47,881 bases of DNA from an uncultured Clostridia bacterium. GTDB taxonomy: Bacteria; Bacillota; Clostridia; Christensenellales; Borkfalkiaceae. Shown here one piece after another: positions 5,592 to 27,037 of the stretch (positions are counted from its first letter, which is position 1; each line of letters begins with the position of its first letter). The stretch is taken from positions 1 through 47,881 of the forward strand of contig CANQJF010000013.1 in NCBI GenBank assembly GCA_947624225.1. Direction: 5' to 3'. The notes beneath the pieces are model-generated. The model saw only the letters and a list, made by a program, of their open reading frames with translations, was not told where the DNA came from and did not search any database. A program made the translations under genes and the position numbers.

Positions 5592-8500
5592 TTACGATGC
5601 GGTCTGTTCTTTCCCGCCCGTTAAAGTTTGCACATGGGCAAAAGTAAACACGCCACCACTATTAACACGGAAAGCCGCAGTATATTTGTAGGAATAATTG
5701 CCGTCGATATTTTCGATCAGAATCTCTCCTCCCTTGGGCTCTGTGGTCTCTTCCACGTCAGGATTATATTCGCCGCCGTCGTAGAAGAATCTGAGGTTGA
5801 AAGATTCACCCGGCTTGAACCAGAAAGTATATTCTTGCGAATGTTCCGTGCTGTCTGTTCTATCGGCTTTGCTATCATAGGTTTCTTTCACCGGGGGATG
5901 ATCGCCGTAAACCAACTCAAAGCCCAGCACATACGCGTAAGCCTTGCTGTTATTATCCCCTTTGTTCGTGCGCGCCAACGTAATTGTAAGGCGATACTTT
6001 TGGCTCCACTTGGCAGTGACGGTGACGGTGCCATCGGCATCTTGATCCAAGGCGCGGTTGAGCACAGTTTCGGGCGACACCGCGCTTCCGTCCTCCGCGC
6101 ACCAGCCCTCAAAATAGTATTCATGAGATAGTTCGTCATCGTATTGGTGGAGGTCTATCGCGGGCATGCCTGCCTGTGCGAACGTCCAATCGAGAGGAAT
6201 ATCTTTCACCGTTATGCTCTCTATTGCGGGATAATTGTCCGCGGGGCGTTCATACTCGAACGTGACCGAGACGAGCTCTTCCGCATCCGCAAACCGGCCG
6301 AAGAGATAGAGCTCGACCGAAGCGCCCTGCTCCTCTTTCACCAAGACCTTATCGACCGTCGTTTCATTGATTTCTTGTAGCAGTTCTCCCGTTGCACTTT
6401 CACTCAAATACCAGCCGAAGAAAGTGAGACCGGCCGGTACATCGGGCGCAGCCAACGTCAGCCCCGGTTGCTCACATGTCCATGTGCCGAGCAGGCGAGG
6501 CGCTTCGTCCGGGATACACCCGTATACGGTGTAGGTGATGGGGCTCCACTTTGCATACAGGTGGATCTCCTCCCCGCTCTTCACTTGTGCTTTCCCCTCG
6601 ACGCGATCTTTCTCGCACGCCTCGTCGAGATACCAGCCCTCGAAGAAGTAATGTTCCCGCGTCGGGGTGGCGGGCACAAACGCATTCATCTGCCCCGACC
6701 AGACGTCATCTTCGACCGTTTTCGTCACCACATCGTTTTGCTCGCCATCCAGCGTGCCGTTGTTCAGATGATAGTGCACGGTATACGAGGAGGGCCCGAT
6801 CCAATGCTTGTCGATATATTTCCATAGGCCGGGGAGTACCGTGTCCGGCGTTTCGTTTCCGTTCCACCATTTGCTCGTCAATACGACTTTGTAGGCCCCC
6901 TCGGGACCATACTCCACGACCCGATTGTCCGTTTCCTCTGCGGTGTCCTCTCCGATACAGGAAAGCGTCGCCTTACTGTCAATATCCGCCACACCACCCC
7001 CTTCGCTCTCGATCTCGGCGGCGACCGTAGGCGTGGCCGTCTCCGTATGCCTTACGATGAGCTTGCCGTTGACGATGACGCGGGCGGGTTTCTCATCCGT
7101 ATAGTCAAATTCGGGCTTGATGCGGTAGACCTGTGCAAGCCGCGGGATGGGATAGCTGAGCGAACCGTCTCGGAATTTCCCCTGTTGCAGTTTCCCCTCT
7201 GCATCCTCTCCGCCATTCGTCGCACCATAGGAGAGCGCTTTGCCGTTGATGACGAGCGTAGCTCCTTTCTCGATGCGGACATTGGCCCCGGGGAGCATTT
7301 TGAGACTGACGCCCTCCGGGATCGTCGTCGTGCCGGAATTGATGACCATTTCGAGATGTCCGGGAACGGGCACATCCCGATTCAAGGTGCTGACTTGCAT
7401 CCCCATCACTTCCAACCCGAGGTTGTTCACGAAGATATCGCCGTCCGCAATAAAATGCAATTTGCCCTTTGTTTCGTTGACTTCCTTGGTGACGGTGCCT
7501 CCGTCGATCTGCAAAAAGGGAGCGACGCCTTGCGAGGAGCGCGCGGATATAAACTTGACTTCGGCGCACGCATACGTGACATCGCCCATAGTCCCCGCGA
7601 CAAATGCCCGCAAACTGTAAACAGAACCCTTTTGGAACACAGTTTTTGCCACAAGGCTTGCAACCGTGTATTGCGCGAGCGGGAAAACGCCGGCGCCATA
7701 AACCGCCAAGGTTTCACCGCCGCCCTTCCATCCGGACATATTAAAGGGTTCAAAGACGCTTGCCCCATCCTTTGCGACGAGTTCCCCCGCCCCGCACGTG
7801 AAGCCCATGCAATCGAAGGTCGAGCCGCTTTCGAGGGAAAGGCTTGCGCCCTGTTCCAAGGTCAGTTCCCCGTAATAATCTCCGTTGACGCGGGAGGTGT
7901 TGCCGTTGCTTGATGAGATGATTGCATTGACGACCAATCTCCCCGTCACGGAGAGCGCCACGCCGTTTGGCAATGCCAAGGTCACGTAGGGCTCTTTTTC
8001 ATAGGGAGCAGGGGGCTCCTGCTTGCCATAATCCTGTGTAAACGTCTTGGCGTTGGCGCGGATGACGGGATCGGATTTTCTCGCGTCGTCGTCCGCCGTG
8101 CCCGGGTCATCCACCGTCTCCGAATCCATCAATCCCGTGCTGAGAAAGCCCACGGCGGTCGAGGCATAGGGAACGAGCAGGGTGCCGCGGACGCTGTAAC
8201 AATTGTTTTGCGGGTTGCCGTCGGCATCGAGGTAGCCCGCCGCCCGCGCGACGTCGGGATGTGCGAACGCCGTATCGTGCTCGATGATGGCGATGGTCTC
8301 CTTGCTGCCTCCCTCCGCGGTGACCTCCGCAACCGTCTTGGTGCCCTCCTCCCTTTCCACCGTCTCGGGTACGCGCGCGAGCGCATCCTCCACGGTATAC
8401 CATTCGTCGTTCAGCCGCACCGTCTTGTATTTGAAGAGGAGCGCAGTCGTTCTGAGGTCCCCCTCCTCGATGCCGCCAAGTGCCTTGGCCGCGCCGTCAT

Positions 8501-8897
8501 AGCTCGCATAGGTACCGCCGAAAGCATACTCCGCGGGGGCATTCGGCAGGTCGAGCTCGAAGCGATAGGTGGTACCCATGTTCGCGGTTATGCTGTCGGT
8601 ATTGGGAAATGTTGTCTCTCCGTCCGTAAATTCGCGAATGTAGAACGTGCCGACCGAGGAGGTGATGTCCTCGCCCGATTCATCCAAAAATACGAGGTGT
8701 TTTTTGATGTCCCCCAACGAATGGGGCGCGCCGTAATCGAGTTCCACCGTCTTATTGACATAGAATTTGGGCTTGGAATCGCGCCACAGGGGCGTGACGG
8801 TAAACGGATTTGCAATGATCCACGCCGAAGCGCCGACCATGCACAGCATGCTCAGCAGCAGCAAACTCAGGATGACGATGTATTTCTTCTTACTCAC
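5592..8897 (-). CDS. Large exported surface protein with InlB-type B-repeats
   Basis: An 1101-aa exported protein. The start is GTG 8897 with AGGAG 8 bases upstream. Residues 8-30 form a hydrophobic signal/anchor ending GASAWIIANPF, like the A-W ends of SipW-dependent signal peptides in this locus. The middle (about 300-560) is beta-rich and repetitive, rich in G, S, V and N (for example ITLEQGASLSLESG-like units), and may form a beta-helix. About residues 705-965 hold three Listeria-Bacteroides (InlB B) repeats, recognisable by FFEGWYLDEAC, TFFGWYLSES and YYFEGWCAEDGS followed by AKWS. A C-terminal beta domain follows. There is no LPXTG sorting motif and no C-terminal anchor. B-repeat proteins are cell-surface or adhesive proteins; the function here is inferred. 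It is the last large gene of the surface locus. Confidence 0.8.
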   Translation of the reverse strand: MSKKKYIVILSLLLLSMLCMVGASAWIIANPFTVTPLWRDSKPKFYVNKTVELDYGAPHSLGDIKKHLVFLDESGEDITSSVGTFYIREFTDGETTFPNTDSITANMGTTYRFELDLPNAPAEYAFGGTYASYDGAAKALGGIEEGDLRTTALLFKYKTVRLNDEWYTVEDALARVPETVEREEGTKTVAEVTAEGGSKETIAIIEHDTAFAHPDVARAAGYLDADGNPQNNCYSVRGTLLVPYASTAVGFLSTGLMDSETVDDPGTADDDARKSDPVIRANAKTFTQDYGKQEPPAPYEKEPYVTLALPNGVALSVTGRLVVNAIISSSNGNTSRVNGDYYGELTLEQGASLSLESGSTFDCMGFTCGAGELVAKDGASVFEPFNMSGWKGGGETLAVYGAGVFPLAQYTVASLVAKTVFQKGSVYSLRAFVAGTMGDVTYACAEVKFISARSSQGVAPFLQIDGGTVTKEVNETKGKLHFIADGDIFVNNLGLEVMGMQVSTLNRDVPVPGHLEMVINSGTTTIPEGVSLKMLPGANVRIEKGATLVINGKALSYGATNGGEDAEGKLQQGKFRDGSLSYPIPRLAQVYRIKPEFDYTDEKPARVIVNGKLIVRHTETATPTVAAEIESEGGGVADIDSKATLSCIGEDTAEETDNRVVEYGPEGAYKVVLTSKWWNGNETPDTVLPGLWKYIDKHWIGPSSYTVHYHLNNGTLDGEQNDVVTKTVEDDVWSGQMNAFVPATPTREHYFFEGWYLDEACEKDRVEGKAQVKSGEEIHLYAKWSPITYTVYGCIPDEAPRLLGTWTCEQPGLTLAAPDVPAGLTFFGWYLSESATGELLQEINETTVDKVLVKEEQGASVELYLFGRFADAEELVSVTFEYERPADNYPAIESITVKDIPLDWTFAQAGMPAIDLHQYDDELSHEYYFEGWCAEDGSAVSPETVLNRALDQDADGTVTVTAKWSQKYRLTITLARTNKGDNNSKAYAYVLGFELVYGDHPPVKETYDSKADRTDSTEHSQEYTFWFKPGESFNLRFFYDGGEYNPDVEETTEPKGGEILIENIDGNYSYKYTAAFRVNSGGVFTFAHVQTLTGGKEQTAS

Positions 8898-9096: not shown

Positions 9097-9756
9097 TCAC
9101 GAGCGGATGGCGATGCCGAAAGAGAACTCTGCCCCGCGCTCCTGCCCGTTTTGGGAATCGTAAAAGACTTCATAGATGTCTCGCGTGTAGTCGGCTTGGG
9201 TGGAGACAAAGGTGTATTCGAGGGTAAAACTCGCCCTGCCCGCCCCGGAGGAGTCCCCCACGGAGGGGTCCAAAGAGAAGCTCGCCCAATAGACGTCCCC
9301 CTCCTCCGCGAGTTGGCCGCGCACGTTCGAAATGTGCGCGCGGTCGGCACACGAGACGCCCCGAACGGACGCGAGCGGCGAAAAATTTTCCGTCCCCGTG
9401 AGCCTGAGCGAGACGGAGATGCCGAGCGCTTCTCCCCCGCTCAAACGGGCGCATTTTTCAAGATCTGCCGTGATGATTACGGACATGGTACCCTCGTAGC
9501 TCGTCTTGGAGACCTTACCCTCCTTGTCTAAAAGGGCAAAGCCGTCGGGCGTGTAGACGAGCGGGGAGACGTCTTTGTTCTCGTCCGCGATGAAGAGATA
9601 CTCATCGCTGAAATAGACGTGCTCGGCCTCTATCCCGCCCGCCAGCGAATCGTAGAGCGGTCCCTGTTGGGTGATCACCCAATTGGCGAAACCCATGCTC
9701 ATCACCGCGCAGCAGGAGAATACCGCAACGATGCAAAGTTTTGATTTGATCCGCAT
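9097..9756 (-). CDS. Exported protein with SipW-type signal peptide
   Basis: A 219-aa protein starting at ATG 9756 with GGAGGAG upstream. Residues 1-25 form a signal peptide ending MGFANWVITQQ, the same A-N-W end as the 273-aa protein at 20676 (GFASWVIS). The mature part is beta-rich: GTMSVIITADLEKCARLSGG, ISVSLRLTGTENF, ASFTLEYTFVS. This is consistent with a TasA/camelysin-like beta-sandwich, although sequence similarity is too weak to be sure. It sits 20 bases after the lipoprotein gene in the same direction. It is probably a secreted substrate of one of the two SipW-like peptidases encoded upstream and a minor component of the surface structure. Confidence 0.65.
   Translation of the reverse strand: MRIKSKLCIVAVFSCCAVMSMGFANWVITQQGPLYDSLAGGIEAEHVYFSDEYLFIADENKDVSPLVYTPDGFALLDKEGKVSKTSYEGTMSVIITADLEKCARLSGGEALGISVSLRLTGTENFSPLASVRGVSCADRAHISNVRGQLAEEGDVYWASFSLDPSVGDSSGAGRASFTLEYTFVSTQADYTRDIYEVFYDSQNGQERGAEFSFGIAIRS
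9480..9490 (+). other. Over-represented polar word CGGACATGG (one of nine sites)
   Basis: CGGACATGG starts near 9480, 14126, 19236, 21701, 28432, 30088, 32444 and 44346 on the plus strand and ends near 18226 on the minus strand. Five of the nine extend to CGGACATGGTA and three to CGGACATGGGT. The sites lie in genes of both orientations and in different reading frames, so the word is conserved as DNA, not as a protein motif. Near-matches occur at about 25036 (CGGGCATGGGTG) and 47127 (CCGACATGGTAG). Confidence 0.6.
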
Positions 9757-9776
9757 AGCGTCTCCTCCGTAAGCTG

Positions 9777-10889
9777 TCAGGCCTGCTCCCAGCGGGGATA
9801 GAGGTCGAGATCGGAGAGGACGGGCGTGAGATCGGTGAAGTGCCCCGAATTGGGGTCGGGCTCCTCCCCGGGCGCGACGGCTTTCGTATACCAGCCGAGA
9901 AAGCGCTGCCCCGGCCTTTCCACCTTGGGCAGTTCCAGCCCCTTGGCGGCAAAGTTATACCCATGCTCGATCTGCACGGGGAAAGTGCTCTCCTCCTCGG
10001 TCTGCAAATGGAACGTCACGGTGTGTTTTCGGGTGGAGAAGCTCGAAAAATCCGCAATGATCTCCCATTGCAACTCGTCCACCTTGTGGTAGATGCGGCA
10101 GGAGGCCTCGTCGAAGTAAAAATCCCCGATGTGATAGGAGGAATCCCCCGGCTGCCCTCTGCCGACATACCAGCGGTTGGCGCGCCCGATTTCGAGGTCT
10201 TGCGAGCCGCCGTCGTCATAGTAGATGCGGAGGGTGAAGCTGTCCTCCGAGGCGTCCTCCTCGCACCCGATCTCGCGGATGCCCCTGCCCTTGGGGATGG
10301 TGACGGTGCTGTTTTCCAGCTCATATTCCTCCCAAGCGCCCTGCTCGGCGCGATATCGCTCGTAAAAGATGTGGACGACGATGTTGCCCTCCTCGTCCTC
10401 GTCCCACGCGACGCGGGAGATCCTGTCCCCGTCTAAGCCGTCCCGCCCGGGGCGGAGCGTCATGACGGCGGGTTGGCTGCCGTCCGAATAGCGGATGGTC
10501 ACGGTGACGAAGTTGGTCTCGGGATCGGTCTCGGAGGAGATGTCCGTGATGTATCTGCCGCAGGGGATGGTAAAGACGTAGGGCGGCATGGAGACGTCGG
10601 TATACTCCACCGTGACGGTGACCGAGCCGTCGGCATTGGTAAGAGCGCCCACGCTCCGGATGCCGTTCCCCTCCTCCCCCGCCGCGGGGTCGGGGAGGAA
10701 GAACGTGCTCTCGGGGGAGCCGTCGGCATATTGGATGACGATCTCGATGCCCGTGTCGTCCGCGCTCCGACGGCTGAAAATATTCTCGATGGCGCGCGTC
10801 TGTTCCGCGTCAAAAAATGTGCATCCGACAGAAAAGAGCATAACCATGCCCGCGATGAGCGCGCAGAAAAATTTTTTTAAGCTCCTCAT
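9777..10889 (-). CDS. Surface lipoprotein with repeated beta units and one B-repeat
   Basis: A 370-aa lipoprotein: the signal peptide ends in the lipobox FSVGC with the acylated Cys at residue 23. Residues about 45-260 hold repeated units of the form 'V.I.YxDGS ... TIPxGRyI' (IEIVIQYADGSPE, VTVTIRYSDGSQPA, LRIYYDDGGSQD), suggesting tandem small beta modules. The C-terminal 75 residues form an InlB-type B-repeat ending RFLGWYTKAV ... LYPRWEQA. The start overlaps the stop of the preceding beta-helix gene (ATGA), indicating translational coupling. It would be anchored on the outer face of the membrane and could tether or nucleate the B-repeat proteins of this locus. That role is inferred from context only. 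Confidence 0.75.
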   Translation of the reverse strand: MRSLKKFFCALIAGMVMLFSVGCTFFDAEQTRAIENIFSRRSADDTGIEIVIQYADGSPESTFFLPDPAAGEEGNGIRSVGALTNADGSVTVTVEYTDVSMPPYVFTIPCGRYITDISSETDPETNFVTVTIRYSDGSQPAVMTLRPGRDGLDGDRISRVAWDEDEEGNIVVHIFYERYRAEQGAWEEYELENSTVTIPKGRGIREIGCEEDASEDSFTLRIYYDDGGSQDLEIGRANRWYVGRGQPGDSSYHIGDFYFDEASCRIYHKVDELQWEIIADFSSFSTRKHTVTFHLQTEEESTFPVQIEHGYNFAAKGLELPKVERPGQRFLGWYTKAVAPGEEPDPNSGHFTDLTPVLSDLDLYPRWEQA

Positions 10890-13414
10890 AAATTCTCCTT
10901 TGCTTTCAAGAGATCCCGATAATCGGGCACGAGCGGCGTGCCGGTTGCGGCGTCGAACACGCCCTCGGGATCGTTTCCGAAGCGGAATTTGAAGGGCTCA
11001 TAGCCCATGACCGTCGTCACCGTCTTGGTGAGCACCTCTTTCATAAAGCGCATGAAGTTTGGCTGTGAGACGACGGCGTGCAGGCCTCCCCCGCTCGCGA
11101 GCCCCGAGAGGTCGAGCGCCGTGGTCAGATTTAAATAACTGTCGAGCAGGTCCACGTCGATGGACTCCGTGAGCCCGCCCGCGGTGAGACCGTTCACCGT
11201 GACAGAGGACAAGTTTCTGCCGCCGCCATAGAACGCGACGGGAATGTTGATATACTGCTCCCCGCCGATGTCGAAGATGACGCCCTGTTCGCGCGCGCGG
11301 GCAGTCAGGATCTCTTTGAGCGGGAAGATGTCGTCGATGGTGATGTCATACTCCTTGTCGAGCAGGTTTTTGACGATGTCCGAGATGTTCTGGTCGATGA
11401 GGCCGGAGATGTCCCACGCGCCGAGCGTCTTGTAGTCGAAGAACCGGGTGTTGCCCGAGAGGTTGACGCTGACGGGATAGGAGGCGCCCGAGAGATTCAT
11501 TTCGAGCGCGTCGAAGCCGGGCATGACCTCATCCAGCATGCCGCCGAGGATGGACAGCACGGCGGAGAGCATGGAGGGGGCGCGGTTGTATAAAAACGGG
11601 CCGTTGAACAGCGTCTCCACACCGATGGCGGCGATCCCGCTCCGATAGAAGATGGTGTCGCGGATCTCCGTGGAACCGTCGAGATCGTCCGCCGCGATCC
11701 TGTCCTCGCAATTGAGCCCCCTTTGCAGGGAGTGCAGCGCCGTTTTCATGGCGTCCTTGGAATAAGCCGTCGGCTTGCCGCTCAAAAGCCCGCCGATGTC
11801 GAACTCGGGGTAGCCCGTCGTGAACAGGCTGAGACTTTGGTCCCCCGCCCCGCCTTTCCCCAAATAGGAAGAGAGCGTCGAGGAGACCGTCTTGCCGTCG
11901 AGGGTCGTGAACGGATGCTGTCTCGCGTCCCCCTGCCCGTTCTTCTCATAGCGGTTGCTCCCCACCATGAGCAGGAAGTTGCGCGCCGTGCTCAGGATGC
12001 AATTGTCGACCGTCACATGTTCGGAGGAATAGCTTCGCATGACCGTCTTTCCGTTGGAGAGCACGGAATTCTTCACCGTGACGTTGTCGCCGTGCACTTC
12101 GAGCACGGTCCCCGCATAGTGGAGGTTTTGCACGATGAGGCCGAAATCACAGTTCTTCACCTTTACGTCGTTGACCGTGATGTTGTTGCCGTCGATATAG
12201 AGGCCGACGTTGTCCTGCCCGAACGCGGTGACGAGCGGCTTGCTCCCGTTGGGGTCGCCGAGCATGTAGAATGGCTTGGGGCCGCGGAACAGATCCCCCG
12301 GGCCGGGGTAGTAGGTGTCGTAGGAGTTGCCCGAGGCGTCGGTCGTGGTGGAATAGGAGGTCGGAAAACACAGGTTGTGCAAATTGAGCGTGTATCCGTT
12401 TCCATAGAAGTCTTTGCGGATGCGAAGTCCCGCGAGGATCTCGTCGCTGACCGCACTGTATTGGGCATGGGTGGCAGCAAATGCGTTCCACTGCTCCATG
12501 AACTCGTTGTTCCACGTGGTGCGGAAGCGATAGACTTCGTCCGCAAACGCAAACCCGTTCCCCCGCTCCGTGCCGAACAGCGCCACGTTGGAGGAGGCCG
12601 CCGCGGCGAAGTTGGCACTGGATTCGAAATGCTTCCTCAAAACCGCGATCTCCCCCGTCTCCGAGCGGTTGGTGCAATTGAGCAGGTCATCATAAGTATA
12701 GACGTTGACGCCCCCCTCGACGACCTCGAAAGAAAGCTCGGCGGTGAGGCCGTCTTTGCCGCTGAATGCCGCGGTGGCCTTGCCCGCCCCGTGCACGGCA
12801 ATGGTCTCCCCGGCGAGATCGACGGTGAGATTGGAGGAAGTGCGCGCCGCGTCCACCTTGATGTCCCCGCGCAGGGACTCGTCGGACAGCGTGAGATCAA
12901 ATTGGATGACGGCGGGCTTTTTGATGCCGTTTTCCCAATCGTATTGGCCGTAATAGACTGTCTCGTCGACATTTTGGCCCGACCCGTCCACCGCGGTGTT
13001 GACGGCAAAGGCGCTTCCGCTGTATAGGATCCCCGTCATGCGCCGCGGGGTGACGTTGCCCTTTTCCGTCGAGCAGGTGATCGTCACCCTGCCCACCGTT
13101 GCGGCGCGGAGGAACCACTGCCCGACGCCCGCTTCATAGACATCGGCATGGGCCTCTTCGGCACCGTCGGCATTCTCCACTGTCCACACGATGCGGTTGC
13201 CCTCGCTCGCGGGGTAGCGGCTGTCCGCCACCACGCCCTCCGCCGCCAACGGGATCTGCTTGCCCACCTCGAACAGCTCGTTTTCGCGGTAGGCCCAATC
13301 GATGCGGATGATGTCGTTGTCGATGAGGTTGAATGCCGCACGGATGGTGACCACGCCGAACAGCGCAACGAGAAAGGGAATGATGAGAAGAATGGCAAGA
13401 TTTTTCTTTTTCAT
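10886..13414 (-). CDS. Exported protein with right-handed beta-helix region
   Basis: An 842-aa protein. Residues 6-26 form an N-terminal membrane segment or uncleaved signal. Residues about 405-500 show parallel beta-helix type repetition (NITVNDVKVKNCDFGLIV, DNVTVKNSVLSNGKTVM, EHVTVDNCILSTARNF), as in pectate-lyase-fold proteins. No catalytic residues of a lyase or hydrolase can be assigned. The start ATG 13414 follows GGAGGTGG and lies 1 base after the permease stop, so it is coupled to the ABC exporter genes; it overlaps the downstream lipoprotein gene. The N-terminal part (30-250) is beta-rich and unrecognised. It is likely a structural or adhesive cell-surface protein, perhaps exported or matured with help from the adjacent transporter. 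Confidence 0.65.
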   Translation of the reverse strand: MKKKNLAILLIIPFLVALFGVVTIRAAFNLIDNDIIRIDWAYRENELFEVGKQIPLAAEGVVADSRYPASEGNRIVWTVENADGAEEAHADVYEAGVGQWFLRAATVGRVTITCSTEKGNVTPRRMTGILYSGSAFAVNTAVDGSGQNVDETVYYGQYDWENGIKKPAVIQFDLTLSDESLRGDIKVDAARTSSNLTVDLAGETIAVHGAGKATAAFSGKDGLTAELSFEVVEGGVNVYTYDDLLNCTNRSETGEIAVLRKHFESSANFAAAASSNVALFGTERGNGFAFADEVYRFRTTWNNEFMEQWNAFAATHAQYSAVSDEILAGLRIRKDFYGNGYTLNLHNLCFPTSYSTTTDASGNSYDTYYPGPGDLFRGPKPFYMLGDPNGSKPLVTAFGQDNVGLYIDGNNITVNDVKVKNCDFGLIVQNLHYAGTVLEVHGDNVTVKNSVLSNGKTVMRSYSSEHVTVDNCILSTARNFLLMVGSNRYEKNGQGDARQHPFTTLDGKTVSSTLSSYLGKGGAGDQSLSLFTTGYPEFDIGGLLSGKPTAYSKDAMKTALHSLQRGLNCEDRIAADDLDGSTEIRDTIFYRSGIAAIGVETLFNGPFLYNRAPSMLSAVLSILGGMLDEVMPGFDALEMNLSGASYPVSVNLSGNTRFFDYKTLGAWDISGLIDQNISDIVKNLLDKEYDITIDDIFPLKEILTARAREQGVIFDIGGEQYINIPVAFYGGGRNLSSVTVNGLTAGGLTESIDVDLLDSYLNLTTALDLSGLASGGGLHAVVSQPNFMRFMKEVLTKTVTTVMGYEPFKFRFGNDPEGVFDAATGTPLVPDYRDLLKAKENL

Positions 13415-15009: not shown

Positions 15010-15759
15010 CTATCCTCCGTACGTCTCCACAAACACACGGGCAAGGCGGAGGCGGAGATTGGGCGTCTTGTTGAGGTCATAGAGGGCGGCGACGACGCCG
15101 TTGTTCACGATTGCCACCCGATCGCACAGCTTGGAGACCAGCTCGATGTTGTGGGAGGTGACAAAGACCGTCTTGCCGTGGTCGGCATATTCACGCATCA
15201 TCTTTTTGAGCTCCTCCACGGCCATGATGTCGAGGCCGACGGTCGGCTCGTCGAGAATCCAGATGTCGGGATTGTGCAACAGGCTCGCGACGAGGCAGAG
15301 CTTTTGCTTCATGCCGTGGGAGTAGCCCGAGATGGGCAGTTTGAGGTCGCTCTCCTGAAAGGAGAGCCGCCCGATGAGGTATTCGAAATTGGCCTTGAAT
15401 TGCTTCTCCCCCACCCCATAGACGCTGGCGATAAATTCGAGGTAGTCATAGCCCGTCATGATCTCATAACAAGTGGGCTCGGAGGCGACATAGCCGAAGC
15501 TCCGCTTGGCCTCCAAGCTGTCGCTCACGATATCGTGGCCGTTCAGCGTGATGGAGCCGCTGTTGAACTTCTTGACCCCGATCATGCAGTCGATGGTCGT
15601 CGACTTGCCGATGCCGTTTCTGCCGATAAAGCCGAACAGCTCGCCGCGATACACGTCGAGATCGATGCCCTTTAAAACTTGCTTCTTGCCGTAGGACTTA
15701 TGGAGTTCTTTGATCGAGACGGCGATCTCGCCGCGCTCTTGCATGGCTATTTGCGTCAT
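15010..15759 (-). CDS. ABC transporter ATP-binding protein
   Basis: A 249-aa ABC ATPase. Walker A GRNGIGKST is at residues 46-54, a signature variant YSHGMKQKL replaces the canonical LSGGQ, Walker B is ILDEPTVGLD, and the H-loop is in VTSHNIE. The family layout matches single-domain ATPases that partner with ABC-2 permeases. Start ATG 15759 overlaps the upstream stop by the ATGA arrangement, so translation is coupled to the DUF2357-like gene; longer in-frame starts lack a ribosome-binding site. With the 530-aa permease it forms an exporter embedded in the surface locus. Confidence 0.85.
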   Translation of the reverse strand: MTQIAMQERGEIAVSIKELHKSYGKKQVLKGIDLDVYRGELFGFIGRNGIGKSTTIDCMIGVKKFNSGSITLNGHDIVSDSLEAKRSFGYVASEPTCYEIMTGYDYLEFIASVYGVGEKQFKANFEYLIGRLSFQESDLKLPISGYSHGMKQKLCLVASLLHNPDIWILDEPTVGLDIMAVEELKKMMREYADHGKTVFVTSHNIELVSKLCDRVAIVNNGVVAALYDLNKTPNLRLRLARVFVETYGG

Positions 15760-19865: not shown

Positions 19866-20600
19866 TCACTCGTTGGGGCTCGCCATGAGCGTGAGCGTAT
19901 ACGTCGGGCGGTAGTTTCTCGGGTCCATCCCCTCCAACACCGTGGTTTGCAGATCTTGCAGGGTACTCTTTACCTCTTCCAAGGGCTCCCCGAGCCCCAC
20001 CGTGTCAAAATAGATGCTCGGATTCATATTTTGGAAGCGCGTCCCCCACTGCAACGCAATGGAGAAGTCAAACCGAAAGGCACTGTCCGCGCCGTCGGAG
20101 ACGAGCACGCCGTCATCCGAGAGCGAAATGGGCACTTCTTTGAATTGTCCCGATTGGGCGTCGTAAAATCGGGAGATGTCGACATATCCTTTCTCCGCCG
20201 CATCCAAGATGCCCTGCGGCAGCGTGAGGATGTAAGAAAAGGAGCTGAGGTGTTGCGCCCCCATGAGCACGCCCGAGATTTGCAGCGAGAGTTTCTCCGA
20301 AGAGACGCCGTTCCACGAGACGCGGCCGCTGTCGTCGCCTGCGAGGCTGTCGAACACAAAGCCCACGCCCTGCAACGTCTCGCCGCTAACCACCTCCTCC
20401 CCGTCGACCGTGAGCGAAGTAAACGAAAGCGGGCTCATGGCTACCTCGGCGACGGTCATCCCGCCGTTTGCGGTAACTCCGAGCGTGCTGAAAAGCAACC
20501 AGATCGCGACGCCCGTTGTCGCAAGCGCGGCGGCCGCGAACATGAGCACGCCGTAAAAGAGGCGCCTCCTCGTATATTCTTTTCTCGTCATCTTCGCCAT
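19866..20600 (-). CDS. Membrane-anchored or exported protein, paralogue of the 20676-21497 product
   Basis: A 244-aa protein. Residues 13-40 form one hydrophobic segment; its signal does not carry the A-W end of its paralogue (it reads TTGVAIWLLFSTLG). The mature part matches the neighbouring protein in the C-terminal third: FSIALQWGTRFQNMNPSIYF here against FTVTFAWGSHFNAQNPYTYY there. A TasA-like beta-sandwich is plausible. Start ATG 20600 has only a weak ribosome-binding site; an internal ATG 9 bases later is an alternative. It may be the uncleaved, membrane-held partner of the secreted paralogue, for example an anchor for a fibre. This role is inferred. Confidence 0.6.
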   Translation of the reverse strand: MAKMTRKEYTRRRLFYGVLMFAAAALATTGVAIWLLFSTLGVTANGGMTVAEVAMSPLSFTSLTVDGEEVVSGETLQGVGFVFDSLAGDDSGRVSWNGVSSEKLSLQISGVLMGAQHLSSFSYILTLPQGILDAAEKGYVDISRFYDAQSGQFKEVPISLSDDGVLVSDGADSAFRFDFSIALQWGTRFQNMNPSIYFDTVGLGEPLEEVKSTLQDLQTTVLEGMDPRNYRPTYTLTLMASPNE

Positions 20601-20675: not shown

Positions 20676-21497
20676 TTACTCTGCTTCCGCCTGGGAATAC
20701 CCGGTGAACGTGAAGTGATACTTTTGATCTTTCAGCAAGTATTCCAATATATTGAGAGAAGCCCATGCGTCCTCTTGATAGGCTACCGTATCCGAGGGCG
20801 CGCTCTCGAATTTTCCGTTGTCGAAAGTCGTCTTGCTGTCGATAGAATCTTGATAGCCATACGCGGAATCCGAACGGGTCCCCGATGCCGATTGGGCGTT
20901 GTAATATGTATAGGGATTTTGCGCATTAAAGTGCGAGCCCCATGCGAACGTGACGGTGAAAGAATACTTATACGTCTTACTTTGATCGAGCGCTCCCTCC
21001 AACGTGATTGCGCCCGAAGCGGAATCGATTTGATAGACGGAGCTCCCGTCCTCGTTGCCGTCCGGCTCGGATACTGTCGTCTCGGCATAGGTGACCGAGG
21101 CATTCACCAAATTCAACTCCGTGGTCGCCCGGTTCCAATTGGCACTGTTGGCCGACGGGGTTTCCTCATTGTTGACAAAGAATTGGGTGTCAACGTGGTT
21201 GACGCCTTTCATGGTGAGCGTGAACGTTGCCACCAGCGCCTCCTTGCCCTCCGCTTCGGTGTTGGTCAGCCACGCGCTGTCGTTTTCCATCTCCTTGGGC
21301 GCGCCGAAGTTGATGTCTCCCGTTGCTGTGGCGGTCAAGGTCACGTCGGCAACCGCAACGGCCTCGGCGGTGACGTTTCCGCTCGCCTTGCTCTCCACGC
21401 TGTTGGAGATCACCCAGCTTGCGAAGCCGACGCCGGTCATGGAAACGCCCACAAGAAGCGATGTTGCAAGCGCAACGACCTTTGTTCTACGTTTCAT
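20676..21497 (-). CDS. Exported TasA-like protein with SipW-type signal peptide
   Basis: A 273-aa protein starting at ATG 21497 (MKRRTKVVALATS) with GGAGGA upstream. The signal peptide ends TGVGFASWVISNSVESKAS, the SipW-dependent pattern. The mature part is beta-rich with many S, T, N and Q: ATFTLTMKGVNHVDTQFFVN, YKYSFTVTFAWGSHF, NPYTYYNAQSASG. A large loop is followed by YHFTFTGYSQ at the end. It is a paralogue of the product of the next gene. Composition and signal suggest a secreted fibre or matrix subunit of the TasA/camelysin type, although I see no close match to TasA itself. Confidence 0.65.
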   Translation of the reverse strand: MKRRTKVVALATSLLVGVSMTGVGFASWVISNSVESKASGNVTAEAVAVADVTLTATATGDINFGAPKEMENDSAWLTNTEAEGKEALVATFTLTMKGVNHVDTQFFVNNEETPSANSANWNRATTELNLVNASVTYAETTVSEPDGNEDGSSVYQIDSASGAITLEGALDQSKTYKYSFTVTFAWGSHFNAQNPYTYYNAQSASGTRSDSAYGYQDSIDSKTTFDNGKFESAPSDTVAYQEDAWASLNILEYLLKDQKYHFTFTGYSQAEAE

Positions 21498-21566: not shown

Positions 21567-22136
21567 TTACGGGGCGGACGGAGCAATGATTGTGAATTCC
21601 GTTCCGTCGAATGTCAGCCCGCTGCCGTTTTTTAAGGATTCGCCCGCGGGTGCATTCCCCCAAGCCGCACGGACGGAGAGCGTTAGTTGCACCTCTCCCT
21701 CGGACATGGGTGCCCCGTCGACGGTGAGTGTGAAAGAAAACGCCCCACCCGGTGCAACAGGTTCCGTGGAGAAAGAGAAAGATTTCGCCTCCGCGCCCTG
21801 CGTGGAAAATGTTATGGAAAAGTAGCCCTGTGTGGCCTCGCCGCGCGCGGCGATCTGCACGGTGAAAGCCGCCCCATCCTCCGTTGCGGTGAGAACATAA
21901 GTATCTCCCTGCGGTTCGGACGTGCCGCCCGAAATCGGAGGGTTGACTTGCACCTCCTGCACGGAGAAATTTGCGGCAGTCATCGTCGTCACGCCGCCCG
22001 CGACGTGCGCGCTGAACCACGCATAGGTGAGGCCGACAAGGCAGACCATGGCGAAAAGGATGCTGAAAAGTGAAAGGAGCAGCGTTTTTAAAAGCGCCTT
22101 TTCCGTGAGATTCTGTTGTTCGGATGAGCTTTTCAC
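21567..22136 (-). CDS. Small exported protein with TasA-type signal
   Basis: A 189-aa protein. The start GTG 22136 (VKSSSEQQNL) is preferred because GGAG lies 8 bases upstream; an ATG at 22166 has a poorly spaced site and lies in repeat-derived DNA. A membrane/signal segment at about 17-40 ends LTYAWFSAHVAGGVTTMTA, which resembles the 'AWF ... T..A..F' start of TasA/camelysin proteins. The rest is a beta-sandwich-like chain (TYVLTATEDGAAFTVQIAA, YFSITFSTQG, FSFTLTVDG, VQLTLSVRAAWG). It is the first gene after a 474-base repeat-filled gap, so it may have its own promoter, although I could not identify one. Confidence 0.65.
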   Translation of the reverse strand: MKSSSEQQNLTEKALLKTLLLSLFSILFAMVCLVGLTYAWFSAHVAGGVTTMTAANFSVQEVQVNPPISGGTSEPQGDTYVLTATEDGAAFTVQIAARGEATQGYFSITFSTQGAEAKSFSFSTEPVAPGGAFSFTLTVDGAPMSEGEVQLTLSVRAAWGNAPAGESLKNGSGLTFDGTEFTIIAPSAP

Positions 22137-22610: not shown

Positions 22611-24005
22611 TTACGGAGCAACGGCATCTTGCACGGCAAATTTCAAACTGTAAGTCACGGCATTGCCGAGTTTATCGGTAATGACAACATCGCATGCTTT
22701 GCCGTCTAATCCGGAGATTTCACCACTTATAAGCTTTCCCAGCATTCCGCTCTTCAGCAATTGGTCGAAAGTTTCACCCGAACAACCCATATGTGGTGCA
22801 GCCCAGAAAAGAAGGGGTTCCAGGAGCCAACCGGGACCGCCTACCGGCATATCTTCCACTAAGTCGGGCATTGCTGCGGCTACTACTCCCATAAGAGTAA
22901 CTTGCACCAAGGCTTCCGGATCCTCTTCCAATTCAATCGGATCGCCCGCTTGATGTTCTTCCCCTGCTGTTTGTTCGGTATATGTAAGAGCCTGCAAACT
23001 CGCTATCGTCTCTTGGGAAACTACCTTACCGTTGATTGTAATCGTGTCGATGTTATCTTTTTGCTCCACTACGGCATTGTGAAGTAGACCAACGATACCG
23101 CAAATTCCTATTGTTTTGCACTGACCTTCCATTTGATCAAACGTAAGGATCGATTCGTATTTCTGCGTATCTTCGTTATACGTCATCTTATCAACAGAAA
23201 GCGTACCGACCCATTTCTCGCTTGGATCTGCATCAGCTCTGAGTTCAGCCATCAAACTATTAAAAGTATTCACATCCGTAACACCCGTTTCAACAGCTTT
23301 CTTCACTTTTCTTGACTGAATGGTCTTTTCAGCGGCAGGAAGCGTCTTTTCGGCATCTTGATCATACTTATTCCCGACGGAATCGCTCTCGGAAGAAGCC
23401 TGTGTGGCATAGACATCGACGGTGAACTTGAACGTATATTCTGCTGAGTCGTCATTGTATTCATCATCGCTCTCTGTGGACTGCCAATAGAGGACAATGG
23501 CGAGGGCCTCGCTGTTGTCTTCCTTTGCCACATCCCCTGCCGTCTTGTTCTTTTCATCGGTGCGATAATCGCTCCATGCGGCTTCACGGTCGGTAACGGT
23601 AATGCTCGCGGGGTACTCGATGACCGTATACTGTATGACTTCCGCAAGGCTATTCTCTTCTGCCACCGGGTTCACGGTAATTTTGTATTTGAGCGCCTTG
23701 GTGCCCTTGTTGACGATTCGGATGGGTTTGGAAAACACCATTTTGCCGGGCTCCCACTTTGTTGTATCCTCAGTTTTAAAGACGTTCGTTGCTCCCACCG
23801 CACTTGTCCAAGTTGCGCTTGCGAGATCGCCATCGGCAATGTATTCAAAATCGACATCGAGGGTGCCGGCCGTGATGGTGTTCTCGGCGGACTCGGCCGT
23901 ATCGTGGAACCAGGCAAAGGTGGTGCCGACCAACATCGCGCCGCTCAAAAGAAGCGAAACGCCGCTCATAAGTAACGCTGATTTCAAAGATTTTTTATTC
24001 GTCAT
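22611..24005 (-). CDS. TasA/camelysin-like protein with long C-terminal extension
   Basis: A 464-aa protein. The start is ATG 24005 (MTNKKSLKSALLMSG) because GGAGG precedes it. The SipW-dependent signal peptide ends LVGTTFAWFHDTAESAENTI and the mature chain opens TAGTLDVDFEY, the hallmark of TasA/CalY proteins. The TasA-like domain runs to about residue 215 (FKFTVDVYATQASSESDS). About 250 further residues, not seen in the shorter paralogue, contain a hydrophobic, Pro/Gly/Met-rich segment (LLEPLLFWAAPHMG, two Cys nearby) and end VTYSLKFAVQDAV. Family members polymerise into extracellular fibres. The extension might be a cap or adhesin part, which is my inference. It begins 29 bases after the shorter TasA-like gene. 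Confidence 0.8.
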   Translation of the reverse strand: MTNKKSLKSALLMSGVSLLLSGAMLVGTTFAWFHDTAESAENTITAGTLDVDFEYIADGDLASATWTSAVGATNVFKTEDTTKWEPGKMVFSKPIRIVNKGTKALKYKITVNPVAEENSLAEVIQYTVIEYPASITVTDREAAWSDYRTDEKNKTAGDVAKEDNSEALAIVLYWQSTESDDEYNDDSAEYTFKFTVDVYATQASSESDSVGNKYDQDAEKTLPAAEKTIQSRKVKKAVETGVTDVNTFNSLMAELRADADPSEKWVGTLSVDKMTYNEDTQKYESILTFDQMEGQCKTIGICGIVGLLHNAVVEQKDNIDTITINGKVVSQETIASLQALTYTEQTAGEEHQAGDPIELEEDPEALVQVTLMGVVAAAMPDLVEDMPVGGPGWLLEPLLFWAAPHMGCSGETFDQLLKSGMLGKLISGEISGLDGKACDVVITDKLGNAVTYSLKFAVQDAVAP

Positions 24006-24034
24006 TTTCTTTACCTCCAAAATTCATCGGCGCC

Positions 24035-24781
24035 TCACGCCTCGGGGTAGGTCGCGTCTTTGTCATAATCGGAGCTTACCGAATCCTTCTCCGACGCTGC
24101 CTGCTTCGCAAGAATGCTGATCTTGCACTTGACGTTCAATAGTTGCCCTTCGCCGTCTTTTGCATTATTGTAGACGTTGTCATACTGTTCTGCTTGCGGC
24201 ATCCAATATAACATGGCCACAAAGACGTTAGAGCTTTTGTTTCCCTCTAAGGTCTCCGGTGTCGCTTCCTCCACCGCCTCCCAAATGTCCATGCGGCCGA
24301 GTGCCTCTTCGGATTCGTTGTCTTGTCCGGGGGTTGTGCCCCCATCGTTTATAAGGCCATCAAGCGTCACCACTTTCATTTGGATAACATCTTTGAGGGA
24401 TTTTCCGTCGGTGGTGGAGTTGTATGTGCACTCGATGTTGATCTCATAGTCCAAAGCGAGGTCGCCCGTGTTTTTGATGCGGAAAGGCGTGCTGATGAGC
24501 ATGGCGCCCGGCTCCCACGTGAATGAATCATCGAAAAGTTTTTGCTCGGAAGCACCTGCCCAATTTCCATCGTCTGCCCAATCGGTCTCTTCTTGACTCA
24601 TATCAAGCTGCGTGTTGTATTCCAACGCAACATGCAAGTTTCCGGCAACGATTGTGTTTTCCCCTGATTTCGCCGTATCGGAGAACCACGCAAATGTGGT
24701 GCCCGCAAGCATTGCGCTGCACAAAAGCATTGAAAGCCCGCTCATGAGCAGTGCGGTTTTTAAGGACTTCTTTTTTGTCAT
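24035..24781 (-). CDS. tasA-like: TasA/camelysin-like fibre protein
   Basis: A 248-aa protein, close in size to TasA. ATG 24781 (MTKKKSLKTALLMSG) is preceded by GGAGG. The signal peptide ends LAGTTFAWFSDTAKSGENTI, and the mature chain starts VAGNLHVALEYN. It continues with the family's RIKNTGDLALDYEINIE, a donor-type strand block, and YNNAKDGEGQLLNVKCKISI, ending with an ILAKQAASEKDSVSSDYDKD tail that is shared with the next gene. TasA/CalY proteins are processed by SipW-type peptidases, and one is encoded immediately upstream. It is probably the major fibre subunit of the locus. Confidence 0.85.
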   Translation of the reverse strand: MTKKKSLKTALLMSGLSMLLCSAMLAGTTFAWFSDTAKSGENTIVAGNLHVALEYNTQLDMSQEETDWADDGNWAGASEQKLFDDSFTWEPGAMLISTPFRIKNTGDLALDYEINIECTYNSTTDGKSLKDVIQMKVVTLDGLINDGGTTPGQDNESEEALGRMDIWEAVEEATPETLEGNKSSNVFVAMLYWMPQAEQYDNVYNNAKDGEGQLLNVKCKISILAKQAASEKDSVSSDYDKDATYPEA

Positions 24782-24907
24782 TTTTGTTACCTCCAAATTG
24801 GTTTTGAATTTTTTATGTACGCGGGGTCCTTATCCCGTTTCCACCGTGTTGTTCGGCCGCTTGGGCCGTCTGACTTTGGCCGCTTTATACTGCGCGCCCT
24901 GTTCCCC

Positions 24908-25831
24908 TCAACGGGCGTCGGAGGGTTTGGGCTCGGGCGGGTCGGCCTGCCCCTCGGGCTCCCCGAGGAGTTCTTCTTTGGCCGTTAAGGTCTCCTGCGC
25001 GGCGGGGCCCTCTTGCGTTTTTGAGACCTCATCCTCGGGCATGGGTGCCTCCGATTGCCTCCCATCGGAAGATTGGCCCGCCATTTGCTTTCTCAGCGTG
25101 CGGAGCTCCTCCATCATTCTCTGCGCTTCGAGGCGCTCCTCTTCCAACTTTTGCTTCTCAGCTTGGATCTCCGCGCGCTGCTCGCGTTTATATTGCAAAA
25201 ACAGCCGCACGGCCCCCACGCCCTGCCACACAATGAGGAGCATGAACGGGAGAAAAATGCAGACGAGGTAGCCGGGCGTCGTCTTTAAAAATTGAAAGAA
25301 GTGCCCCAGTCCCGGGATCTTGCCCTCGTATTTGCCGATGACGAACGTGTAGAGCACGATGGCCTCGTCGTCGGTATCCGTCGTGGTGCCGTATGTGATA
25401 AAGCCGGGGTTGCCCTCCGCATCCTTGGTGAGCGCGCGGATCTTGTGCGTGATGATCTCGCCATAGCTATCCTTGTTCGTGGACTGAAAACAGATGATGT
25501 CCCCCGCTTCGAGGGTGGCGGGATCGGTCTCCTTGACAAAGATGAGATCCCCCGCGGCAAAGTCCGTCGCTTTCATGGAATCGGACAGGACGATGAATGC
25601 CTTATACCCGAACAGGCTGCGGTCGGTGCGGTCGAATGTCGTGACGGAGACGATGGTAAAGACCATCATGAACACGGCGAACGCCAAAATCAGCCCCGTG
25701 ATCACGCGATAGATGATCGTGCGCGCCCCCGCCTTGGGCCTTTGATTTTGTTCGGGCTCCCGGGTCTCTTGCGGTTTTTGATTTTCCTCGGGCTCTCGGG
25801 TCTCCCGGGTTTGAACGGTGTTTTCTTCCAT
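24908..25831 (-). CDS. sipW-like: Signal peptidase I, SipW/ER type (first copy)
   Basis: A 307-aa protein, ATG 25831 after GAGGAAAG. The N-terminal cytoplasmic tail is an imperfect repeat of ETREPEENQKP. A membrane segment is at about 41-63. The catalytic Ser85 is in FIVLSDSMKATDF, and His129 is in GEIITHKIRAL where ordinary bacterial enzymes have Lys. A second membrane segment lies near 190-215, followed by a long coiled coil (REQRAEIQAEKQKLEEERLE) and an acidic Pro-rich end. SipW-type peptidases cleave TasA-like precursors, and two such genes follow directly. The coiled-coil tail is an unusual addition that could recruit other locus proteins. Confidence 0.85.
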   Translation of the reverse strand: MEENTVQTRETREPEENQKPQETREPEQNQRPKAGARTIIYRVITGLILAFAVFMMVFTIVSVTTFDRTDRSLFGYKAFIVLSDSMKATDFAAGDLIFVKETDPATLEAGDIICFQSTNKDSYGEIITHKIRALTKDAEGNPGFITYGTTTDTDDEAIVLYTFVIGKYEGKIPGLGHFFQFLKTTPGYLVCIFLPFMLLIVWQGVGAVRLFLQYKREQRAEIQAEKQKLEEERLEAQRMMEELRTLRKQMAGQSSDGRQSEAPMPEDEVSKTQEGPAAQETLTAKEELLGEPEGQADPPEPKPSDAR

Positions 25832-25839
25832 GACTTTCC

Positions 25840-26409
25840 TCAGAATTGCTTGTCGGGATTGTCCCTGACCTGCGTGACTTCGGCCGCCAAGCGGAATGTG
25901 ACCGACGTCCCCTGATACTCGTTGCCCGCATCATCGGCAATGTTGAAAAAGATGGTGAAGTCCCGATGGTCGCGCAACTTTAAGATGTCGTCCGCCGCGA
26001 CCGTGTTCTCGCGCTCCATTTCCGACATGCGCCCGCTGTAAAGCAGTCTGTCCCCCAAGTAGATCTCCACCTCCATGACCGCCGCCAGCTCCCCTCTGAC
26101 ATCGGTGAAGTAGAGGCGGTAGTAGACGTCCTCATCGCTCTGGTTCTCCAAGAAGAAAGTGCTCACCGTCGTCTCGCCCGGTGCGGAAAAATCCAGCCCC
26201 ACGTTCTCGTCGACAACGGGCTTGCCGTCGTTGAAATTCAGTTTGAGGCCCGTTGAATAGAGCACGCTGTCCGTCAGCACATTGGAGTATGCCAAGCTCA
26301 AGGAGGAGATGATGAGGCACGCGACGAGCAAAAGGATGGTGAACACATAGAGGATGACGGAGACAAGCGACATGCGCTTGGAGCCATTATCTTGCACGCT
26401 TTCTTGCAT
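25840..26409 (-). CDS. Membrane protein associated with the SipW-like peptidase
   Basis: A 189-aa protein. The start is ATG 26409 (MQESVQDNGSKRMS) with GGGGGGAA just upstream; the open frame is longer but upstream residues are a frame shadow of the preceding gene. One membrane segment is at about 16-40 (SVILYVFTILLLVACLIISS). The outside domain is beta-rich: VSTFFLENQSDEDVYYRLYF, VEIYLGDRLLYSGRMSEMER, FTIFFNIADDAGNEY. The LYSG(R/Q) block is shared with the product of the overlapping upstream gene, so the two are probably divergent paralogues. It lies 8 bases before the signal peptidase gene. It may hold or deliver the TasA-like precursors; this is inference from context. Confidence 0.6.
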   Translation of the reverse strand: MQESVQDNGSKRMSLVSVILYVFTILLLVACLIISSLSLAYSNVLTDSVLYSTGLKLNFNDGKPVVDENVGLDFSAPGETTVSTFFLENQSDEDVYYRLYFTDVRGELAAVMEVEIYLGDRLLYSGRMSEMERENTVAADDILKLRDHRDFTIFFNIADDAGNEYQGTSVTFRLAAEVTQVRDNPDKQF

Positions 26410-27037
26410 GGTTTCCCCCCTTTCCCGTGATGAATGCGAGCTGCAACAGCGCCAGCACAACGGCAAGCACGAGCAACAGAATGAGGACGGTGACGACCAA
26501 TTGCGAGTTTTGAACGGGGGCGAGGAATTCCGCCTCCTCCACCCACCATATATAATTCGCTGCGAGCGATTGGCCCTGCGCCGCACTGTCTGCATCCGCG
26601 CTGAGCGTGGTCACGATCTCATAGCAGACGTCCTCCGTCTTTTCCTCTCCGAAGAGGGTGAGGGTGATATCCGAAGCCTTGGACAGCTGCCCGCTGTAAA
26701 GTGCGGAGTCTTTCCCCTGAACGGAGACCTCGACGTCGAGCGCATCCGCGAGCAAGGGCTCTGCCTCCTCGGGGAGCTCCACGCGGAGATGGAGGGTAAC
26801 CGTTTGCCGATGGGCAACGCGCAATTGAAACTGCGCCTCGACCTTGTCGCCGGGGGACATGTCCGAGAAGCGCACGGGCTCGGCGACGAGGTTTTCCCCG
26901 CGCGCGATGGTGAGAATGGGCTCTTCCGACCTCGATTGCAAGACGACGACCACGGTCGCGATCAGGGCCGTAACAAAGAACAAAACGGCCAAAAAGAACG
27001 TTGTCACCGCAAATGCGTGCTTTACTCGCCCCTTCAT
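26387..27037 (-). CDS. Membrane protein with N- and C-terminal anchors, first gene of the surface locus
   Basis: A 216-aa protein. ATG 27037 (MKGRVKHAFAVTT) follows a perfect AAGGAGGTG; an ATG 18 bases earlier lies before that site and is rejected. It has an N-terminal membrane segment at about 9-34 and a C-terminal one at about 178-205 (LVVTVLILLLVLAVVLALLQ), with an outside domain of about 140 residues between them. That domain contains VTLHLRVELPEEAEPLL, SALYSGQLSKASDITLTLF and an IWWVEEAEF stretch before the last helix. It shares the LYSG block with the next gene, which it overlaps by 23 bases. Function unknown; the topology fits an assembly or anchoring factor. Confidence 0.6.
   Translation of the reverse strand: MKGRVKHAFAVTTFFLAVLFFVTALIATVVVVLQSRSEEPILTIARGENLVAEPVRFSDMSPGDKVEAQFQLRVAHRQTVTLHLRVELPEEAEPLLADALDVEVSVQGKDSALYSGQLSKASDITLTLFGEEKTEDVCYEIVTTLSADADSAAQGQSLAANYIWWVEEAEFLAPVQNSQLVVTVLILLLVLAVVLALLQLAFITGKGGNHARKRAR

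Follow-up and report, generated by a model that had tools for sequence, protein, structure and literature searches.

A run of 17 co-directional genes from an uncultured Clostridia bacterium of the family Borkfalkiaceae raises the question of what a membrane-anchored AAA+ NTPase and its McrC-like partner could be doing beside SipW-type signal peptidases, an ABC transporter and a series of exported proteins. The genes lie on the minus strand between positions 5592 and 27037 of a 47,881-nt stretch of contig CANQJF010000013.1 (assembly GCA_947624225.1; hereafter the window), with the start of the first gene at 27037 and the stop of the last at 5592. A first-pass annotation, made from the letters of the window alone, had counted about 16 such genes, often overlapping, and had read them as a single 21-kb locus that builds an extracellular fibre or matrix. 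The co-directional and often overlapping arrangement is confirmed, but the single locus is not: the 17 genes appear to form at least two units. One of these, a core that would span about 5.6-21.5 kb, comprises sipW2, the membrane AAA+ gene, its DUF2357 partner, an ABC ATPase and permease, a beta-helix protein and a lipoprotein, with exported proteins of what we call the AW family encoded 5' of them. This cluster is shared by uncultured gut bacteria. It combines an enzyme dedicated to trimming the signals of surface proteins with a membrane form of a motor pair that is known elsewhere from defence against invading DNA or RNA, and suggests a powered machine that builds a surface layer or fibre. 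Our reading, which we consider probable but well short of certain, is that a McrBC-type membrane machine lacking its nuclease works with a dedicated SipW peptidase to assemble surface subunits, the AAA+/DUF2357 pair acting with SipW2 as a membrane motor on subunits anchored by their signals. It is based on gene identities, gene order, co-conservation, correlated divergence, sequence motifs, the four membrane segments of the AAA+ protein and the absence of conserved nuclease residues in its partner.

How do the two units come apart? We compared the window with 80 named relative loci (L numbers; G numbers denote genomes), all fetched through their AAA+ match and with mechanical gene calls. Greedy gene calling left seven of the 80 unlabelled (long antisense frames), and counts were taken from the order of family-model matches and from distance comparisons. 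The genes tmA, tmB, tas1, tas2 and aw3 were the best window match of no gene across these loci, and sipW1 was the best match just once, of an L086 gene on the other strand. At 1e-20, 23 of 151 genomes of the family, its own among them, contain relatives of sipW1. Four of the best were opened (L143-L146), and each lies with TasA-like or aw3-like genes and with no AAA+ gene nearby; a relative of tmA (6e-7) is found near the one in L145. Weaker sipW1 relatives (L147-L149) adjoin AAA+ genes of a sister clade. In the close relative G117, whose AAA+ match is the best in the family, no SipW match was found in the 14 kb past the AW genes (L113), a stretch in which TasA-like genes were not searched. 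Because the TasA/SipW1 cassette (21567-27037) is separable in this way, recurring without the core and unmatched around the core in relatives, we rejected the reading of a single 21-kb locus. The cassette is apparently a neighbouring, separate unit, which may feed the same surface.

The core itself recurs. Its order, sipW-AAA-DUF2357-abcA-abcP-beta-helix-lipo on one strand, was recovered by family models in 36 of the 80 named loci, in a count that does not exclude unmatched genes between family matches; some kilobases separate sipW from AAA in L049, L051, L052 and L071. The lipoprotein gene stands ahead of the ABC genes in eight further loci, five show the main order truncated by a contig end, and four have sipW-AAA-DUF2357-lipo with the ABC pair unseen, two of which (L083, L094) end soon after. 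Apart from the loci without a sipW match, considered below, the remaining seven are other or cut forms. An AW match lies 5' of sipW in 55 of the 57 loci that have sipW, and, going by their record titles, the relatives include assemblies of Clostridia, Bacilli, Erysipelotrichaceae and Acholeplasmatales as well as others. The seven core families have pairwise distances that correlate with one another (Mantel r 0.43-0.93, p 0.001 each, 999 permutations) over 37 loci, namely 36 of the 80 and the window, in which all seven are of usable length; since shared host ancestry would give the same, this shows joint inheritance and not contact. At E 1e-3 there are 24 SipW-like genes in 21 genomes, or about one per genome, so that by our own arithmetic a SipW gene would be expected within 5 kb of a given gene in about 1% of cases, against the 57 of 80 observed. 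The AAA+, DUF2357 and ABC genes are conserved in relatives together with a SipW-type peptidase and exported proteins, the opposite of what the first-pass annotation had named as its refutation. That unrelated surface genes were juxtaposed by chance does hold for part of the run, the TasA/SipW1 cassette not being conserved with the core. For the core we rejected it, since gene order recurs and distances correlate across Clostridia and Bacilli assemblies, and as an explanation of the whole it seems to us highly improbable.

Co-occurrence within the bacterial family gives a similar picture. A strong match to the beta-helix protein was found in nine of the 151 genomes, all nine with a core AAA+ gene; the match in G016 is cut by a contig end, and the core AAA+ gene of G071 is split over two contigs. 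The association has a Fisher p of 6e-13, or of 1e-9 with the five next-best beta-helix genomes counted against it, values that are indicative only because the genomes are related. The AAA matches of this survey were opened in part, and that of G142 starts at a contig end.

What kind of machine do the two central genes encode? The window AAA+ protein matched no Pfam family over its cut-off, and AAA_5 was matched at E 0.01 by 29 of the 44 members of the AAA+ alignment. Walker A (G-x-S-G-T-G-K-[ST]) and Walker B (D-E) are intact over the 44 members and in the window, and an N-[KRT]-D motif is present in all 44, the next residue being D in 41, E in one and G in two. Four membrane segments lie, on the family average, within the first 175 residues. 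Assembly had been described as ATP-driven in the first-pass annotation; the N-x-D motif is that of the McrB GTPase branch, and the AAA+ protein may use GTP rather than ATP. The proposed pairing with DUF2357 stands for the family, in which PF09823 was matched by 22 of 42 partners at E 0.01 (best 2.1e-11), but the window member reaches only 19.3 bits, under the cut-off of 23.3. All 42 partners, of about 430 aa, carry a C-x-x-C..C-x-x-C zinc ribbon. Searches against solved structures returned 41 sequences up to E 1 for the partner, the best being zinc-ribbon proteins such as eS31 and eL43, whose ribbons that of the window partner resembles (best E 1.2e-5), with no McrC-named entry among the 41; for the AAA+ protein they returned no relative by sequence at E 0.01. 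In residues 225-388 of the partner, no D, E, K or Q is conserved above 57% over 42 members, so that this sequence test does not recover a PD-(D/E)xK nuclease, and an active nuclease was set aside as unsupported. The alignments used here and below (A1-A4, with 36, 42, 44 and 48 sequences) are made of chosen members, not all.

The absent nuclease residues bear directly on a different explanation, in which the core is a defence system: its membrane-bound McrBC relative would detect invaders at the cell surface, and the surface genes would provide sensors or a barrier. The window AAA+ protein matches PDC-M26A, a candidate phage-defence family of PADLOC (8.7e-38, in two stretches); the name PDC-M26 was not found in the literature searched. 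The N-x-D branch is otherwise described, in the available text of PMC11090510, in CoCoNuT systems with predicted RNA targeting, and the patchy distribution of the locus would also suit defence. Yet besides the partner's lack of conserved nuclease residues, no match over cut-off to a nuclease family was obtained for any of the seven conserved families, and the genes alongside encode a signal peptidase, exported proteins, an ABC module and a lipoprotein. We therefore regard a defence function as improbable.

In a tree of 117 AAA domains, which holds some records twice (for example L086/L153, L077/L154 and L093/L159), the core clade contains 53 of the 54 core-labelled sequences, with weak support (0.63). 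A clade of 20 with SipW-linked and Acholeplasma sequences has support of 0.90, and a tandem-AAA clade of 18 has support of 1.0. Within this family of bacteria, sister AAA/DUF2357 loci also lie beside SipW genes and TFAWF-type exported proteins, or beside large proteins. Related loci L124, L168, L172, L174, L175, L181, L182, L185 and L186 have one to three AAA matches of this clade, one frame often of about 1050-1250 aa, around a DUF2357 gene and with large proteins adjoining; in L174 no DUF2357 gene was seen beside the AAA match. Acholeplasma and its relatives (L106-L111) also have an AAA/DUF2357 pair. Two genes precede it in L108, L110 and L111: one encodes a protein that is truncated at the locus start and measures at least 2756-2808 aa, the other a membrane protein of some 420-430 aa. 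The large protein of L108 has Cadherin-like domains (PF12733) in 14 stretches, and the membrane protein of L110 weakly resembles EAL (25.6 bits against a cut-off of 31.3).

The two SipW-like peptidases of the first-pass annotation are upheld: sipW1 and sipW2 score 63.9 and 64.8 bits against TIGR02228 (cut-off 51.85). Against NF046067, the stricter Bacillus SipW model, sipW1 scores 75.6 bits, under the cut-off of 190. The conserved Ser, His and Asp motifs of such peptidases (S-M, H-R and G-D) are each present in 52 of 52 members of the sipW2 family. A third SipW-like stretch, under the family cut-off, lies elsewhere in the same genome (G000:C9:38028-38339) within a 436-aa frame, and long frames like it occur in other genomes of the genus.

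The exported proteins of the core carry a signal motif of their own. Among 109 AW-family genes in 49 loci, 78 have a W after the signal. Relative to this W, 70 of the 78 have G at -4 and 65 have F at -3, all have A or S at -2, and 74 have V, I or L at +1. Of the 31 others, 30 lack the W (the eight shown have F or Y there) and one lacks a clear membrane segment. The signals of aw4 and aw6 in the window fit this motif, and those of aw5 and the B-repeat protein fit loosely (Table 1); tas1, tas2 and aw3 end their signals in T[FY]AWF. A further signature, W-[GAS]-x-x-F..N-P, is found in 56 of the 109 AW genes and in none of 600 other grouped genes from the same loci. The likeness to TasA claimed for the locus holds for tas1 and tas2, which score 28.4 and 28.2 bits against TIGR04088 (cut-off 19) and 26.9 and 25.0 bits against PF12389 (cut-off 22.5), the PF12389 matches spanning only residues 7-61 and 7-53. 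It does not extend to the core AW proteins, as neither model was matched by any of 48 members (Pfam E 0.01; NCBIfam E 0.1). Compared by sequence with solved structures, AW proteins gave matches only at E 0.037 or worse.

The ABC genes and the beta-helix gene form a module. Relatives of the permease have 9 to 15 segments by crude hydropathy, and it matched no family over cut-off. The beta-helix protein named in the first-pass annotation is conserved in relative loci, but its match to Beta_helix (PF13229) is weak, at 15.9 bits in the window protein (cut-off 25.9) and in five of 36 members at E 0.01, and solved structures were matched by sequence only at E 0.036 or worse. Weaker beta-helix relatives occur in 25 further genomes of the family (34 of 151 in total at 1e-3), six of which, when opened, showed ABC/beta-helix modules without an AAA+ gene. 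Nine opened stretches (L117-L123, L128, L129) have the trio but no AAA+ gene; three of these are second modules in the own genome and in G117. An extra gene separates permease and beta-helix in L122, L128 and L129, and in eight of the nine the neighbouring frame is 929-3178 aa long (several are cut by the stretch end), a 2026-aa one having B-repeats. Since the trio is found without AAA+, it is a portable module, coupled here to the SipW/AAA unit.

This portability, which means that the trio can work alone, is what recommends a further explanation: the AAA+/DUF2357 pair could regulate the peptidase and the transporter, or serve them as a quality-control ATPase, with the ABC/beta-helix module alone exporting. 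The distances of DUF2357 partner and permease, correlated at 0.93, fit it too. Against this, two long-flanked records (L063 = L125 and L077 = L154) have SipW-AAA-DUF2357-lipo without the trio, and we consider a purely regulatory pair unlikely. Downstream of the module, the claim of B-repeat proteins holds for the last gene, Brep, which scores 52.1 bits against PF09479 (cut-off 27) and 48.3 bits against TIGR02543, but not for the window lipoprotein, at 19.8 bits; a relative of the lipoprotein in L048 exceeds the PF09479 cut-off.

Several observations weigh against an assembly machine, together with the defence-family match noted above. First, the mature AW domain has neither a TasA match nor a consistent Pfam family, and the profile alignment of AW with TasA is limited to the signal and the first strand (E 1.5e-4, probability 52). 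Second, the peptidase is not always present: 20 of the 80 named loci have no sipW match, four of them cut 5', and the AAA tree has a sister clade of 24 (support 0.93) in which no sequence is labelled with SipW, some being cut; in L086/L153 of that clade, SipW lies on the other strand. Third, the SipW/AAA pair does not stand out by its divergence, its r being 0.92 against 0.93 for DUF2357 and permease. Finally, the core AAA+ locus is patchy, being found in 11 of the 151 family genomes. Two of these 11 core loci (G090, G144) lack the ABC/beta-helix module, which is thus not indispensable. Across 398 sampled genomes of the phylum, an AAA match at 1e-60 was found only in the own genome, among the matches listed (at most three candidates per genome), and the system seems rare overall.

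Taking the assembly reading as the best account nonetheless, the core would make and place a set of exported surface subunits as follows. AW-family precursors would be held in the membrane by their signal segment, and the dedicated SipW2 would release them at its own motif, probably GF[AS]|xW[VI]. Cleavage there would expose a hydrophobic N-terminus like the one that serves TasA as a donor strand, and by this analogy the new AW terminus would suit donor-strand use. The membrane AAA+ protein, probably a McrB-like ring, would spend NTP (GTP or ATP) at the inner face with the McrC-like DUF2357/zinc-ribbon protein as its activator, and the pair would extract, gate or proof-read the subunits or the peptidase. 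The ABC transporter and beta-helix protein would be another energised module, one that extends to the outside, with the lipoprotein and the B-repeat protein anchoring or capping the product. Ring formation, the nucleotide, the direction of force, the cleavage site, a polymeric product and NTP-driven assembly as such are what we infer for this scheme.

In a bolder version, a McrB/McrC pair that shed its nuclease and came to sit in the membrane would have become the motor of Gram-positive surface assembly; together with a private SipW and signal code it would polymerise a new exported family, and the ABC/beta-helix module would serve as a second engine. This version is tentative, and we lean somewhat against it. 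If true, it would describe an energised route of fibre assembly distinct from sortase pili and type IV pili, and from the TasA route in its present understanding.

More generally, strong gene-order evidence ties a family known from defence to construction of the cell surface, and direct NTP power in the building of Gram-positive surface fibres becomes testable. The genes also supply a parts list for a kind of system that is given one paragraph in the literature searched (CoCoPALM), and the signal motif may predict which exported proteins pair with which SipW peptidase.

Table 1. Genes of the run in the window, in order of transcription.
Gene	Position	Strand	Description	Family or database match
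tmA	26387..27037	-	small protein, membrane segments at both ends; opens TasA/SipW1 cassette	
tmB	25840..26409	-	membrane-anchored protein	
sipW1	24908..25831	-	SipW-type signal peptidase of TasA cassette	TIGR02228
tas1	24035..24781	-	TasA/camelysin-like, signal end TFAWF	PF12389, TIGR04088
tas2	22611..24005	-	larger TasA/camelysin-like, signal end TFAWF	PF12389, TIGR04088
aw3	21567..22136	-	exported protein, signal end TYAWF; relatives in sipW1 cassettes (L143, L144)	
aw4	20676..21497	-	exported AW-family protein, signal GFASWVI, WGSHFNAQNPYTY signature; core	
aw5	19866..20600	-	exported AW-family protein directly 5' of sipW2, signal GVAIWLL, WGTRFQNMNPSIY signature; core	
sipW2	18848..19861	-	SipW-type signal peptidase of core	TIGR02228
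membrane AAA+ NTPase	17050..18882	-	four N-terminal membrane segments, NxD McrB-type motif	PADLOC PDC-M26A
DUF2357 partner	15756..17048	-	McrC N-domain-like; C-terminal CxxC..CxxC zinc ribbon, without conserved nuclease residues	
ABC transporter ATPase	15010..15759	-		PF00005 8.8e-25
probable ABC permease	13416..15008	-	identity from position beside ABC ATPase	
beta-helix protein	10886..13414	-	surface protein, N-terminal anchor, probable right-handed beta-helix	PF13229 weak
lipoprotein	9777..10889	-	B-repeat-like C-terminus	PF09479 under cut-off
aw6	9097..9756	-	exported protein, signal GFANWVI; matched in few relative loci	
Brep	5592..8897	-	1101-aa exported protein, B-repeats, signal GASAWII	PF09479, TIGR02543

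From aw5 to aw6 the spacings range between a 35-nt overlap and a 20-nt gap; wider gaps lie between tas2 and aw3 (474 nt) and between aw6 and the B-repeat gene (199 nt). Gene starts were picked by eye from ribosome-site-like sequence and are putative, that of aw3 (GTG at 22136) being the analyst's choice. The tmB product matched no Pfam family.

Upstream of the run, a divergent gene (27460-27744, plus strand) with a perfect TTGACA-17-TATAAT promoter encodes a 74-aa MazE/AbrB-type DNA-binding protein (PF04014, 38 bits) and is followed by genes for an ABC ATPase and an ABC-2 permease. Because AbrB of B. subtilis represses tapA-sipW-tasA, this protein may, by analogy, regulate the locus. Between the divergent operons are three related copies of a 25-nt element (27124-27148, 27229-27255 and 27487-27511), the later two with 84% and 64% identity to the first and the middle one inside a perfect 26-nt palindrome; they are possible operator sites. 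On the plus strand, a terminator-like hairpin (27267-27302) comes after a second perfect promoter (27160-27188), within about 115 nt of it, so that 27160-27302 could encode a possible small RNA; no RNA family was matched in the window. A third perfect match lies at 31373-31401 on the minus strand, which makes three in 48 kb, where shuffled sequence predicts 0.00. As two of these promoters point away from the locus, an invertible promoter was sought 5' of 27037, but none of the 18 inverted-repeat pairs there frames a promoter convincingly and the idea was dropped.

How does the core compare with systems already known? NosDFY consists of a beta-helix protein, an ABC ATPase and a permease, and the core has comparable genes for an ABC ATPase, a permease and an anchored beta-helix protein. 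We keep this as an analogy, which has no support in NCBIfam: a library that may or may not include Nos models gave no match at E 0.05 for the permease and beta-helix protein of the window and of L040, and the models best matched by the ABC ATPase include DrrA and GldA, among the best 25 of 190 matches. McrBC is a type IV restriction system made of the GTPase McrB and of McrC. The core resembles it in an AAA+ protein with the N-x-D variant of the N-x-x-D motif and in an adjoining DUF2357 partner gene, but differs in the four N-terminal membrane segments of the AAA+ protein and in a partner without conserved nuclease residues.

The tapA-sipW-tasA operon of Bacillus subtilis and the sipW-calY1-bc_1280-calY2 operon of B. 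cereus (PMC9674648, PMC10151520, available text) likewise place a SipW-type peptidase beside presumed exported substrates, and tas1 and tas2 have TasA-type signals. As named there, however, these operons have no AAA+, DUF2357, ABC or beta-helix gene, and the core AW proteins, as noted, fall outside TIGR04088. No paper joining DUF2357 and SipW was found in a literature search that had most subscription journals and preprint servers outside its reach.

The first-pass annotation had known of no described system with this gene set. A related SipW-linked system, CoCoPALM, the closest published one, is already briefly named in PMC11090510, the available text of which gives the N-x-D variant as a mark of the McrB branch that includes CoCoNuT and CoCoPALM. 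CoCoPALM is described there as an NTPase fused to an FtsB-like part with membrane and coiled-coil helices and associated with a signal peptidase family protein, with a McrC homologue to which a coiled coil is fused. Judged by title, it is the subject of one work only (in two versions) in the literature searched, and the separate publication announced in the available text did not turn up. The core resembles CoCoPALM in the N-x-D motif of a McrB-like NTPase, present in 44 of 44 members, and in an associated signal peptidase, sipW2 adjoining the AAA+ gene. It differs, as far as the available description goes, in having four membrane segments, a zinc-ribbon partner of about 430 aa, the ABC/beta-helix/lipoprotein module, and an exported family and signal motif of its own. 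FtsB has one membrane segment. Better fits to the published description exist in the same bacterial family, where a crude count gives one to three membrane segments and two SipW genes are frequent, and these fall in a clade separate from the core AAA clade. With different membrane segments and a separate clade, the core was not classed as CoCoPALM, and we would place it as a distinct relative of that SipW-linked system.

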